Shown piece after piece: positions 3,785-17,133 of a DNA stretch of 22,480 nucleotides. The first letter of the stretch is position 1. Every line of letters starts with the position of its first letter. The notes beneath the pieces were generated by a model. The model worked only from the letters and a program-made list of their open reading frames with translations, ran no database searches and had not been told where the DNA came from. This stretch comes from a virus. The position numbers and the translations under genes are program-made. The stretch is taken from the IMG/VR virus record IMGVR_UViG_3300007735_000491, positions 1 through 22,480 of that record, one strand, 5' to 3'.

Positions 3785-5137
3785 TCAGTACCCTCCGCGC
3801 CCGCGGCGCTCCTGTGTGTTCCAGCGGAATGGATCCGCGTCCTGCTGCGCTTTTCGCAGCGCCGCCCCCGCCATCAGATCGGCCTTCTGCGCCGTGCGGG
3901 GGTTTCTGTACGCGAGCTGGCCGAACGTGTCGGCCCCGTGACTCGCCCAGTCATGCACCGGCAGTGCGGCCCCCGTGGGGTCCACGGTGCGCTCCTTCCA
4001 GCGGTAGTGCTGGAGACACTCAAGCAGCCGGGCGCACTTGCCCTGGTCGAACCACGTCAGCGGGAAGATCGACCGCGCCGCATAGATGCGCTCCGCGATG
4101 CTCTGCACCTTCGGGGCGATGCTGAAGTGCAGGCCCATTGAGCGGGCCATGTCCAGCCGGGTCCGCGCCCCGCCGCCCCACTCGCGGACCTGAATGTCGT
4201 GGGGGGCGTAGTGGGCCTCGTAGACGTAGGGCTTACTGCGCACCAACCGGGCGAACTCGTCCAGCCCTTTGCCGATCACCTCGTCGTAATCGATGACACG
4301 GACTTGACCGGCGGGCGTGGTCTGGCTGTAGACGATGGACATCGCATCGTCGACGCCGATGTCCAAGTCAGTCGAGACGAGCAGCGACGGGTCGTACGGC
4401 ACCACCGTAATGCGGCCCTGCTCGCGGGCGAGGGCCACTTCGCGGGCGTAGATGGCGCCCTTGACGGACGCCTCGAAGCTGCACTCGAATTCCTGCGCGT
4501 ACTCGTCGTCGGACATGACGCGGCGGGCTTCGGACAGCTCGTGGGCGTCAATCAGGTGGGTCTCGCTGGCCCGGTACGCGGCGTAGAACCAGCCCGGCTC
4601 ACGCTGGGCGGTCTGCACCACGTCGTAAAACTGGTTCTTGCCGTTGGGCGTGCCCACGAAGAGCGCCCAGCCCTTCCGGTCGGCCAGAAGCGGGCGCAGC
4701 ACCTCGGAGAAGAGGTTGCTCGCCATCAGGCCGTACTCGTCGAGGACGCAACCATCGAGATAGATGCCGCGCAGCGCGTCGGGGTTGTCGGCGCCGTAGA
4801 TGCGAATCTGCGCCCCGTTCAACGGGAAGTCCACGCGGAGCTCCGACTCGTTCACGGTCACGCCATCCACGGGACTCACGTAGTGCTTCAGGTAGTCCCA
4901 CGCGATCGCTTTCCCCATGCGGTACGTCGGGGCGATGTACGCGAAGCGGGGGCGCTCCTTCTCGCAGCGCATGGCCGCGCGGATCAGGTGATTGACGGCG
5001 AGGACCGTCTTGCCGAAACGCCGATGGCAGACCACCGCGGCAAAGCGGTGCGCATCGAGCGCGGCGTGGATCACGCGCTGCAGGGGGCGGGGCGCGTAGG
5101 GGAGCCGCACGAGCTCGGTGGCTACTGCTCCTGCCAC
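3785..5137 (-). CDS. terL: Terminase large subunit (ATPase-nuclease)
   Basis: 450 residues with the two TerL domains. In the ATPase domain the Walker A-like loop is CHRRFGKT (37-44), Walker B is VLDEY (131-135, D133/E134) and motif III is FVGTPNG (160-166). The RNase H-fold nuclease domain shows a first acidic cluster TDLDIGVDD (256-264), a middle motif APHDIQ (311-316) and a third acidic residue in HDWASHGADTFG (D403). TerL drives ATP-dependent DNA packaging into the prohead and cuts concatemers. The ATG at 5137 overlaps the small-subunit gene by 16 nt, and the TGA is followed at once by two micro-ORFs and portal. The short glycine-rich C-terminal tail (RRGRGGY) would be the portal-docking end. 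Confidence 0.95.
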   Translation of the reverse strand: MAGAVATELVRLPYAPRPLQRVIHAALDAHRFAAVVCHRRFGKTVLAVNHLIRAAMRCEKERPRFAYIAPTYRMGKAIAWDYLKHYVSPVDGVTVNESELRVDFPLNGAQIRIYGADNPDALRGIYLDGCVLDEYGLMASNLFSEVLRPLLADRKGWALFVGTPNGKNQFYDVVQTAQREPGWFYAAYRASETHLIDAHELSEARRVMSDDEYAQEFECSFEASVKGAIYAREVALAREQGRITVVPYDPSLLVSTDLDIGVDDAMSIVYSQTTPAGQVRVIDYDEVIGKGLDEFARLVRSKPYVYEAHYAPHDIQVREWGGGARTRLDMARSMGLHFSIAPKVQSIAERIYAARSIFPLTWFDQGKCARLLECLQHYRWKERTVDPTGAALPVHDWASHGADTFGQLAYRNPRTAQKADLMAGAALRKAQQDADPFRWNTQERRGRGGY

Positions 5138-14486: not shown

Positions 14487-14504
14487 TCACGCCGTGCGGC
14501 GTGA
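14487..14504. repeat. 8-bp inverted repeat at the HTH gene stop
   Basis: TCACGCCG and CGGCGTGA flank a 2-nt centre and include the stop codon. No U-run follows in the minus direction. A compact palindrome like this may be an operator or an mRNA hairpin protecting the 3' end. Confidence 0.45.
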
Positions 14505-14879
14505 GGTCTGTGGCTGGCGCAACGTCGCCCGCGCCATCCGCTTCTTCATCAACTCGGTGGCCTCGGCAAACCGCCGCGCCACCGCGTCGAGGTCTTCCAG
14601 TCCCATCGAATCCGCCCACTCTCTGACCAGGGCGGCGACGACCTGCTTGCCGTCCGCGTCCAGCGTGGCCGCGCCGAGGGCTTGCAGCGACAACCGCCCG
14701 TCGTGGTGCGTCATCTGCGCGAGGCGTGTGCCACTCACCCCGAGCAGATGCGCGAACGTCTCGCGCTTCATGCCCACCGCGTGCAGACAGCGGTCGAGCG
14801 AGGCGTCCACGTCGAACCCGTCGCGCTTCAGCGTCTGAAGTAGCGCGTGGGCCTCGTGTGGGTGGACAGTGGACGCCAT
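14487..14879 (-). CDS. HTH regulatory protein, CII-like position
   Basis: 130 residues from ATG 14879. A helix-turn-helix is visible around VGMKRETFAHLLGVSGTRLAQM (about 35-56): the turn LGVSGT, then a recognition helix. A helical C-terminal part follows, likely for oligomerisation (LVREWADSMGLEDLDAVARRFAEATELM). Order Cro-like, Xis-like, then this gene resembles the slot of CII-type regulators in lambdoid phages, but sequence identity to CII is not apparent. The stop codon lies inside an 8-bp inverted repeat (14487-14504) of possible regulatory use. Confidence 0.7.
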   Translation of the reverse strand: MASTVHPHEAHALLQTLKRDGFDVDASLDRCLHAVGMKRETFAHLLGVSGTRLAQMTHHDGRLSLQALGAATLDADGKQVVAALVREWADSMGLEDLDAVARRFAEATELMKKRMARATLRQPQTSRRTA

Positions 14880-14883
14880 GACT

Positions 14884-15180
14884 TCACCCTTTCCGGAGAT
14901 TGGCGATCGAGGCCGGATGCATCTGGTGACGCTTGCGCGGCAGGGCCATCGCCCGGTCGAGATCGCGTCGGAGGTAAAACCCGCGTCCGTTGGGGGTCAG
15001 CCCCTTGCGATGACGCCAGGTATAGAACGCGCGGGTGGACTTGCACCCGACGTAGATCGCGGCATCCGCAGCCGTGAGCCACACGCTGCGGCTCTGGCCG
15101 ATGCGATCGAGACGGTGCGCGTCTACCGCGCCCAGCTCGTGCTCGCCACCGCCCGACTGCGTGAGCTGCTGGAGGGACAT
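14884..15180 (-). CDS. Excisionase/MerR-like DNA-binding protein
   Basis: 98 residues from ATG 15180, 2 nt after the Cro-like stop; GAGGCGG is about 10 nt upstream. The core WLTAADAAIYVGCKSTRAFY, then WRHRKGLTPNGRGFYLRRDLDRAM (given here in two parts), is the small winged helix of Xis and AlpA-type proteins: helix, turn with Y-V-G, then a wing containing G-R-G-F-Y-L-R-R-D-L. Excisionases direct integrase towards excision. With an integrase 0.8 kb away and placement in the lytic operon, a role as Xis is likely, although a transcription factor is possible. Residues 1-30 are less conserved in style; a later start cannot be excluded. Confidence 0.72.
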   Translation of the reverse strand: MSLQQLTQSGGGEHELGAVDAHRLDRIGQSRSVWLTAADAAIYVGCKSTRAFYTWRHRKGLTPNGRGFYLRRDLDRAMALPRKRHQMHPASIANLRKG

Positions 15181-15182
15181 GA

Positions 15183-15362
15183 TTAAGCCGCCTCGAAGTG
15201 CAGACGCACGCGCAGGGCGCGCTCCAGCGCGACAGCGGTGCCGTGCATCGGACGCGTCTTGCCCTGCTCCAACCGGCAGATGGTGGACTTGTTCACGCCG
15301 ACGCGCTTCGCCAGCGCATCGAGCGTCAATCCCTTGCGCTTGCGCGCCTCTCTCAGTTGCAT
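15183..15362 (-). CDS. Cro-like XRE-family repressor, leaderless
   Basis: A 59-residue frame from ATG 15362 to TAA 15185-15183. It reads as an XRE helix-turn-helix: LREARKRKGLTLDALAKRVG, then VNKSTICRLEQGKTRP (helices 2 and 3 with the classic S-T-I-x-R-L-E-x-G), then a short C-terminal helix ending HFEAA. It is divergent from the plus-strand repressor at 15478 and heads the long leftward operon, the Cro position. The ATG lies only about 8 nt from the -10 box of the promoter at 15370-15399, so the mRNA should be leaderless or nearly so. No Shine-Dalgarno sequence is possible. Confidence 0.82.
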   Translation of the reverse strand: MQLREARKRKGLTLDALAKRVGVNKSTICRLEQGKTRPMHGTAVALERALRVRLHFEAA

Positions 15363-15369
15363 GAATGCG

Positions 15370-15399
15370 ACTATAGGTGCGTTGATGCGCCTATGTCAA
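15370..15399 (-). promoter_or_regulatory. Sigma70-type early leftward promoter
   Basis: On the minus strand, TTGACA (15399-15394, perfect -35) and TATAGT (15375-15370, -10) are separated by 18 nt. The expected start of transcription, about 7 nt after the -10, falls at or next to the Cro-like ATG (15362). Inverted repeats overlap both boxes, so repressor binding would block it. Confidence 0.78.
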
Positions 15400-15425
15400 C
15401 AGGAAAGTTGCGCCCGCTCAACTTT
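15373..15425. promoter_or_regulatory. Operator region of the lysis-lysogeny switch
   Basis: Three overlapping or adjacent dyads lie between the divergent HTH genes. Site one has ATAGGTGC (15373-15380) and GCGCCTAT (15387-15394), one mismatch, sitting in the promoter spacer. Site two is GTTGA (15381-15385) with TCAAC (15396-15400), covering the -35 box. Site three is AAAGTTG (15404-15410) with CAACTTT (15419-15425), 8-nt spacer. GTTGA/TCAAC half-sites recur, suggesting two operators for the Cro-like and cI-like proteins. Confidence 0.62.
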
Positions 15426-15477
15426 TCTTTTTGTGAGGGGCTACAGCGCGGTGCGTGCGTGCAACGATTGGGGTGGT

Positions 15478-15864
15478 ATGGATTGGGACGCCATTCGGAA
15501 TGCGCTCGGAGATGTCAGGCGGGCGGCTGGTCGCGAGTCAGTGGAGGACTTCGCAATCGAGATCGGCGTCCACAAGACCACCGTGTACCGCATTGAGCAG
15601 CACCAGACGCAGCCCACGCTGGATCTCATTGCGAAGTGGCTCGAAGCCACGAGCGGCGAGAGTGTCGGAACCTTTCTGACACGACTGGAATCGGGCGTAC
15701 GACCGGGGGCCTATCCTGTCACGCCTCCCCCTCAGAATCAGCCGGGGGGCAACCTTGATGGACTCGCGCGACACGCCGACGCCGGAGACATTCGACTACT
15801 GCAACGGGTGGCGATTGCCATCCTCCACCTTGTCGGCGCTCCAGAGCTTCCCCCGGAGAATTGA
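15478..15864 (+). CDS. cI-like HTH repressor
   Basis: 128 residues from ATG 15478, with a G-rich GGGGTGG before it. The N-terminal XRE domain reads IRNALGDVRRAAGRESVEDF, then AIEIGVHKTTVYRIEQHQTQP and LDLIAKWLEATS, a standard five-helix HTH with the V-x-K-T-T-V-Y-R-I-E recognition helix. A proline-rich linker (VTPPPQNQPGG, about 81-91) leads to a helical C-terminal segment. There is no LexA-type Ser/Lys protease domain, so induction is probably not by RecA-stimulated self-cleavage. It is divergent from the Cro-like gene and upstream of integrase, hence the likely lysogeny repressor. Confidence 0.83.
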   Translation: MDWDAIRNALGDVRRAAGRESVEDFAIEIGVHKTTVYRIEQHQTQPTLDLIAKWLEATSGESVGTFLTRLESGVRPGAYPVTPPPQNQPGGNLDGLARHADAGDIRLLQRVAIAILHLVGAPELPPEN

Positions 15865-15946
15865 CGCGCTAATCGCGCGGAATCCCGCTCGCGCCGATCA
15901 GGTGATTCGCTGGATGCACTGGATTCTGAGGTCGTATGAGGGGTAA
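15758..15946 (+). CDS. Possible small ORF between repressor and integrase
   Basis: A 62-residue frame starts at ATG 15758 inside the repressor gene (a 107-nt out-of-frame overlap) and stops 11 nt inside the integrase gene. GGGGGG lies about 8 nt upstream. The C-terminal part, FPRRIDALIARNPARADQV to IRWMHWILRSYEG, looks protein-like and covers the 71-nt gap that would otherwise be empty. It might be translated to couple repressor and integrase expression. The large overlap makes it uncertain. Confidence 0.42.
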   Translation: MDSRDTPTPETFDYCNGWRLPSSTLSALQSFPRRIDALIARNPARADQVIRWMHWILRSYEG

Positions 15947-16952
15947 GCGGACCAGACTCGAGGAAGGCATCTACCAAGACGCCTACGGTCTGTCTGCCAC
16001 CGTGAAAGTCGCAGGGGTGCAGCGGGAAGGCCGCTGGCCGCTCGACACGGACCGCGAGATCCTGCGCCGCTGGCGGATCCAGAAACGCGCCGAACTCGAC
16101 ACGGACCGCGAGGCGCGTCCGAAGCTGCCGCGTGGGCTGCTACAGGTGGACGGCGAGAAGTGGATTCAGCGGAAGGCGGGGATGGCCTGCTTCAAGTCCG
16201 ATCGCTGCCATCTGCGAGCCTGGTATCCCGTGCTCGGCAAGCGGTCGCGGACGATCATCGACCGGGAGATGGTCGCCACGGTGATTGCGGGCTGGCGGGA
16301 AGCCGGTGTCGCTCCGCGCACCATCAGGCACCGGGTGCGTTTACTGCGCGAGTGCTACCAGGGGATTGACGGGCCAAAGGCCAAGACACCCGTGGATGAC
16401 ATCGCGCTCGGGGAGATGCCGCGCCCGGAGCCGACTGCGGTCCCCGTGGCGGTGATTCGCGCCGTGGCAAAGCGGCTCAAGGCCGCGGCGGCGAGCTCGC
16501 CCAGCGTGGCGAAACACTACGCGCGGTTCCTCGTGCGCGCCACCACCGGCCAGCGCCCTGTGCAGATTGGCCGCGCCGTGCCGGCCGACGTGAACCTACG
16601 CCAGCGCATTTGGTATGTCCGCACCTCGAAGGGCGGCCACCCGATCCCGCTCCCGCTGAACGACGGCATGATCGCCGCGTGGAAAGCGTTCGCCAAGGCG
16701 GACGCGTGGGGACCGTTCGATACATCCACTGCCGCGAAGGTGCTGCACGATCACGGCTGGCCCAAGGGCGTCCGTCCGTATGACCTGCGCCACACGTTCG
16801 CCATCGACCTGCTGCTCTCAGGTGCGGACTTGGGGGACGTGCAGGGGGTGCTCGGGCACTCGCAGATCCAGACGACGCGCAGCCACTACGCCCCCATCCT
16901 GACAGCCCGTCTGCGGAAGGTCACGGCGAAGCGACGGCTCACGCTGGCCTAG
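15936..16952 (+). CDS. int: Tyrosine-type phage integrase
   Basis: 338 residues. An N-terminal SAM-like core-binding region spans about 70-160. The catalytic domain contains the first Arg in RATTGQRPVQIGRA (R207), the beta-hairpin Lys in VRTSKGGHPIPLPL (K232), PYDLRHTF with R285 (Tyr stands where His is often found in the HxxR motif), GVLGHSQ with H308, and the nucleophile SHYAPI (Y318). The enzyme integrates and excises phage DNA at attP. The attP core and arm-type repeats lie directly downstream. The first 65 residues are basic and could be the arm-binding domain. Confidence 0.95.
   Translation: MRGKRTRLEEGIYQDAYGLSATVKVAGVQREGRWPLDTDREILRRWRIQKRAELDTDREARPKLPRGLLQVDGEKWIQRKAGMACFKSDRCHLRAWYPVLGKRSRTIIDREMVATVIAGWREAGVAPRTIRHRVRLLRECYQGIDGPKAKTPVDDIALGEMPRPEPTAVPVAVIRAVAKRLKAAAASSPSVAKHYARFLVRATTGQRPVQIGRAVPADVNLRQRIWYVRTSKGGHPIPLPLNDGMIAAWKAFAKADAWGPFDTSTAAKVLHDHGWPKGVRPYDLRHTFAIDLLLSGADLGDVQGVLGHSQIQTTRSHYAPILTARLRKVTAKRRLTLA

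Positions 16953-17084: not shown

Positions 17085-17133
<49 letters not shown>

Follow-up and report, generated by a model that had tools for sequence, protein, structure and literature searches.

A predicted leaderless cro-like gene under the early lytic promoter of a repressor/Cro switch in a temperate phage

The IMG/VR virus record analysed here, whose entire 22.5-kb length (22,480 nucleotides) is referred to as the window, belongs to a tailed temperate phage carrying portal, terminase, ERF recombinase and integrase genes. Two regulator genes diverge between positions 15362 and 15478, and this pair of HTH genes flanks the control region of the putative lysis-lysogeny switch. The genes and control elements around it are the following.

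14487 to 14879, minus strand: third gene of the leftward operon, HTH-like, with a counterpart at the equal position in relatives
14884 to 15180, minus strand: MerR/HTH_17-like gene, second in the leftward operon and perhaps an excisionase (phrog_2474, E=3.5e-4), at the same place in relatives
15183 to 15362, minus strand: Cro-like gene of 59 aa with an HTH_3 (Cro/CI-type) domain (Pfam HTH_3, E=6.3e-13), heading the leftward early operon
15362 to 15363, minus strand: transcription start predicted from the -10 spacing, on the A of the ATG or next to it; a C precedes the A
15370 to 15375, minus strand: -10 box TATAGT (5/6), 7 nt ahead of the cro ATG at 15362
15373 to 15394, no strand: imperfect dyad ATAGGTGC-6-GCGCCTAT in the promoter spacer, a candidate operator, not significant alone
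15394 to 15399, minus strand: -35 box TTGACA, a 6/6 consensus match
15401 to 15428, no strand: dyad AGGAAAGTTG-8-CAACTTTTCT just upstream of the -35 box, a candidate operator, terminator-like on the plus strand
15478 to 15864, plus strand: divergent repressor-like gene of 128 aa with a weak HTH match, on the integrase side, with a moderate Shine-Dalgarno match (-5.3 kcal/mol)
15936 to 16952, plus strand: tyrosine integrase (Pfam Phage_integrase, E=2.2e-14), on the repressor side

At the protein level, a search of IMG/VR for close relatives of the two regulators returned one weak match for one of them and none for the other, and the 128-aa repressor-like protein found no relative among named phages. 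The third protein of the leftward operon gave no match in the family search of the window proteins and nothing in the homologue search, and operon genes two and three, once aligned, looked too diverged for further scans. Elsewhere in the window, a minus-strand ORF (280-543) resembles a GroES-type co-chaperonin, as judged by eye from its translation, and the large terminase subunit (3785-5137, minus strand) is nearest to pelagiphage terminases, with about 45% identity.

Just downstream of the integrase, positions 17085-17133 hold a 49-nt stretch that perfectly matches the 3' portion of bacterial tRNA-Met(CAT) genes, and this segment is probably the core of attP. The GGG/CCC anticodon stem suggests that the target would be an initiator tRNA. 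This putative attP lies outside the repressor-like gene (15478-15864), unlike in the integration-dependent immunity of BPs-type mycobacteriophages, where attP is placed inside the repressor gene. At the host level, the 49-nt match spans several groups, including Burkholderiales, Acidobacteriota, Bacillaceae and others; no prophage turned up when bacterial genomes were searched with the portal, and a tetranucleotide comparison did not settle the host group. Two of the collected contigs (L163 and L176) come from a MAG titled Bifidobacterium breve at 67-70% GC, and they are possibly misbinned.

The first-pass annotation had placed a near-perfect promoter hard against the cro start codon, and this is borne out. 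Read along the minus strand, the order is TTGACA-TAGGCGCATCAACGCACC-TATAGT-CGCATTC-ATG, with an 18-nt spacer and a promoter score of 11/12. It is the sole site scoring at least 10/12 in the window, while dinucleotide shuffles (n=60) yielded 0.27 such sites per window and zero at 11/12 or more; shuffled sites of at least 10/12 with an ATG 6-8 nt downstream appeared at 0.017 per window. The A of the cro ATG is the eighth base past the -10 box and follows a C, and a C followed by A is a favoured step for transcription to start, so the cro mRNA should begin at its AUG. The two marks by which leaderless genes are recognised, a -10 hexamer lying directly upstream at this distance and the absence of a Shine-Dalgarno site, are both present. 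The 24 nt upstream of cro show zero anti-Shine-Dalgarno pairing, a situation unique among the 30 window starts tested, which were an author-picked list in which some starts may be wrong. The first 15 nt of the cro mRNA are predicted to be unpaired. A downstream TTG was considered as the start codon for cro and rejected, since the protein would then lack the first helix of its HTH domain. On the other side of the switch, the repressor-like gene has no -10 hexamer 7 nt before its ATG at 15478; it has a possible leader and a moderate Shine-Dalgarno match. No rightward promoter for this gene was identified, the best candidate scoring 7/12.

It had also been proposed that operators sit within the promoter spacer and on the -35 box. 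Both dyads exist, but the upstream one ends short of the -35 box, and the one in the spacer, which extends from the last base of the -35 box to the first three bases of the -10 box, is equalled in about one third to one half of the shuffles. The upstream dyad (15401-15428) is less easily reproduced, being equalled by 1% (ungapped) to 5% (gapped) of shuffles. The two differ in sequence and each is present as a single copy in the window; a common dyad was looked for in the switch regions of the relatives and none could be shown. Given the position of both dyads, an operator function is plausible, and so is a repressor covering the promoter through the spacer dyad.

The short -10-to-ATG distance was compared with that in other phages. 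The portal protein has 63 IMG/VR relatives with 34-85% identity, and an HTH_3 scan of 35 of these records, along with an integrase scan, served to locate switch regions. Four phages (L109, L110, L111 and L112) share the window's layout, with divergent HTH regulators flanking a control region in which a repressor-like gene points away from a small Cro-like gene, after which come an HTH_17-like gene and, in third place, another HTH-like one; the integrase lies close to the switch in L109, L110 and L111. The -10 box stands 7-8 nt from the ATG of the Cro-like gene in five of six portal-found relatives (8 nt in L109, L111 and L115; 7 nt in L112 and L113), and 14 nt from it in L110, with L113 and L115 being less certain counterparts than the other four. 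Since the pairwise identity among the Cro-like proteins of these six relatives and the window is just 13-45%, the spacing outlasts the protein sequence. Because phages that are only distantly related have it too, the cro promoter layout looks real and conserved. L112, whose switch was the most similar one found, has in addition a TATACT 7 nt before an ATG of its repressor-like gene (746, minus strand), so both of its switch genes may be leaderless.

The same habit is also found beyond this set. Among phages found through the integrase, the Cro-like genes of the GC-rich L240 (6 nt) and L244 (9 nt) are of the leaderless type and that of L241 stands at 15 nt; a profile search built from the Cro proteins of the window and L112 added the GC-rich L256 (8 nt, without a Shine-Dalgarno site) and L255 (25 nt). 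L240, L244 and L256 thus add three GC-rich phages with distances of 6-9 nt. In the integrase-found L238, L239, L242 and L243, with GC contents of 24-47%, the Cro-like genes are Shine-Dalgarno-led behind leaders of about 40 nt, the L239 figure depending on the choice of its second ATG, and the low-GC records matched by the Cro profile have mostly Shine-Dalgarno-led genes. In the related phages, two broad classes of strong promoter can be told apart, one with 6-8 nt and little or no Shine-Dalgarno signal, and another with leaders of about 20-53 nt and mostly good sites. The short class includes small non-HTH genes in L118, L119, L120 and L124 (6-7 nt, near-consensus promoters, without good Shine-Dalgarno sites), so short spacing is not special to cro, and leaderless starts may be a general trait of first genes in these phages. 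In L120 (two sites), L227 and L237, recurring promoters precede a leader of about 48 nt that is GC-rich and hairpin-like. A C precedes the ATG in 9 of the 13 genes with a leaderless layout (p=0.008 against 33%). It is important to remark that these comparison samples are small, phylogenetically uneven and partly picked by promoter pattern, and hence they support recurrence and not a rate.

Several observations run against a leaderless start, and other readings of the region have to be weighed with them. The cro spacer is 18 rather than 17 nt long, and the -10-to-ATG distance is 14-15 nt in L110, L241 and L253, which implies leaders of about 7 nt, and 25 nt in L255. The transcript might likewise begin a few bases earlier in the window, for instance at the A at 15366, the fourth base past the -10 box, or further upstream, leaving a short leader with Shine-Dalgarno-independent initiation. 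We consider this unlikely: sigma-70 starts usually lie farther from the -10 than position 4, the window holds no second promoter scoring at least 10/12, and the C-A step at the ATG recurs in relatives. Improbable to a similar degree is the idea that the dyad at 15401-15428 works as a plus-strand intrinsic terminator instead of an operator. It is indeed called terminator-like, with an RNA fold of -9.1 kcal/mol, but such calls arise in shuffles at 2.2 per 4 kb, no transcript of the plus strand should run into it, and an operator is the simpler reading of a dyad lying between divergent HTH genes.

The identity of the leaderless gene might also be questioned, as the HTH match of the 59-aa protein is far stronger than that of the 128-aa protein and several of its matches in named phages are annotated as repressors. 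Were the small protein the immunity repressor in place of the larger one, the leaderless gene would be the cI-like one, which is the lambda arrangement. However, the 59-aa gene heads a leftward operon that includes the HTH_17-like gene, ERF and further early genes, the 128-aa gene has the integrase behind it, and relatives carrying an integrase show the same polarity, so that this exchange of roles appears slightly less probable still than the two previous alternatives. The preferred reading, that of a leaderless cro under the early lytic promoter of a repressor/Cro switch, is well supported by the anatomy of the locus and its recurrence in relatives, and we give it a probability of roughly 0.8 as a prediction from sequence.

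Leaderless cI, transcribed from PRM in lambda, is the textbook case. The window resembles the lambda OR region in its divergent HTH regulators and in the operator-like dyad within an early promoter; it differs in that the gene predicted to be leaderless is the Cro-like one and in that its two dyads are not repeats of one operator. The contrast drawn by the first-pass annotation, with cI leaderless in lambda and cro here, fits the window but provides no rule, as indicated by the TATACT of the L112 repressor-like gene and by phage PY54, in which both genes are leaderless. Its further suggestion, that leaderlessness may couple cro translation to the state of the ribosome and so make the switch asymmetric, is conjectural, and the L112 case shows that such an asymmetry would not be general. 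In PY54, RACE placed the beginning of both cro and cI mRNAs at their AUG (PMC4488713), and thus leaderless cro is a known kind; PY54 was the only case found in the literature searched. Its immB region is like the window in having a divergent repressor/cro pair, a strong cro promoter and a cro start at the AUG (predicted from sequence in the window), as well as a single palindrome close to the repressor gene with a second, distinct region at the cro promoter; PY54 Cro binds the palindrome near cI, and CI binds mainly over the cro promoter (PMC4488713). The likeness drawn here is one of layout. PY54 is a linear plasmid prophage of Yersinia with a leaderless cI too, and the window is an integrase-type phage. 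Leaderless HTH regulators have also been described among the C proteins of restriction-modification systems, such as Csp231I (PMC4824078), and in paaR2 (PMC8630535). These are small HTH regulators with leaderless mRNAs and operators at their own promoters, for which the window offers candidates, but they are not phage cro genes, whereas the window gene heads a phage early operon. Finally, the window has in common with the TA-led leaderless genes of GC-rich bacteria a -10 of the TANNNT type some 10 bp ahead of the start codon (PMC3160421); it differs from them in having a consensus -35 too and in that the phage's other genes mostly look Shine-Dalgarno-led.

Taken as a mechanism, RNA polymerase would start leftward at the A of the cro-like ATG, or one base beside it, producing a leaderless mRNA, and would next transcribe the remaining early operon genes, mostly translated from their own ribosome-binding sites. 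A repressor bound to the dyad between the -35 and -10 boxes would exclude polymerase, and the dyad upstream of the -35 box, nearer the repressor gene, would probably be the site for the other HTH protein, as PY54 Cro binds beside cI. The recurrence across diverged Cro proteins suggests that this layout has been kept or has re-evolved in GC-rich phages, which constitutes a modest comparative extension of the PY54 precedent across relatives. A bolder and rather doubtful proposal, though one we rate a little above the alternatives weighed before, is that selection has repeatedly favoured a leaderless lytic regulator in the temperate phages of GC-rich bacteria, in which cro output would be tied to the 70S or initiation-factor state and host translation status would bias the choice between lysis and lysogeny. 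The cro switches collected here form a set for asking whether the mode of translation initiation biases lysis versus lysogeny.
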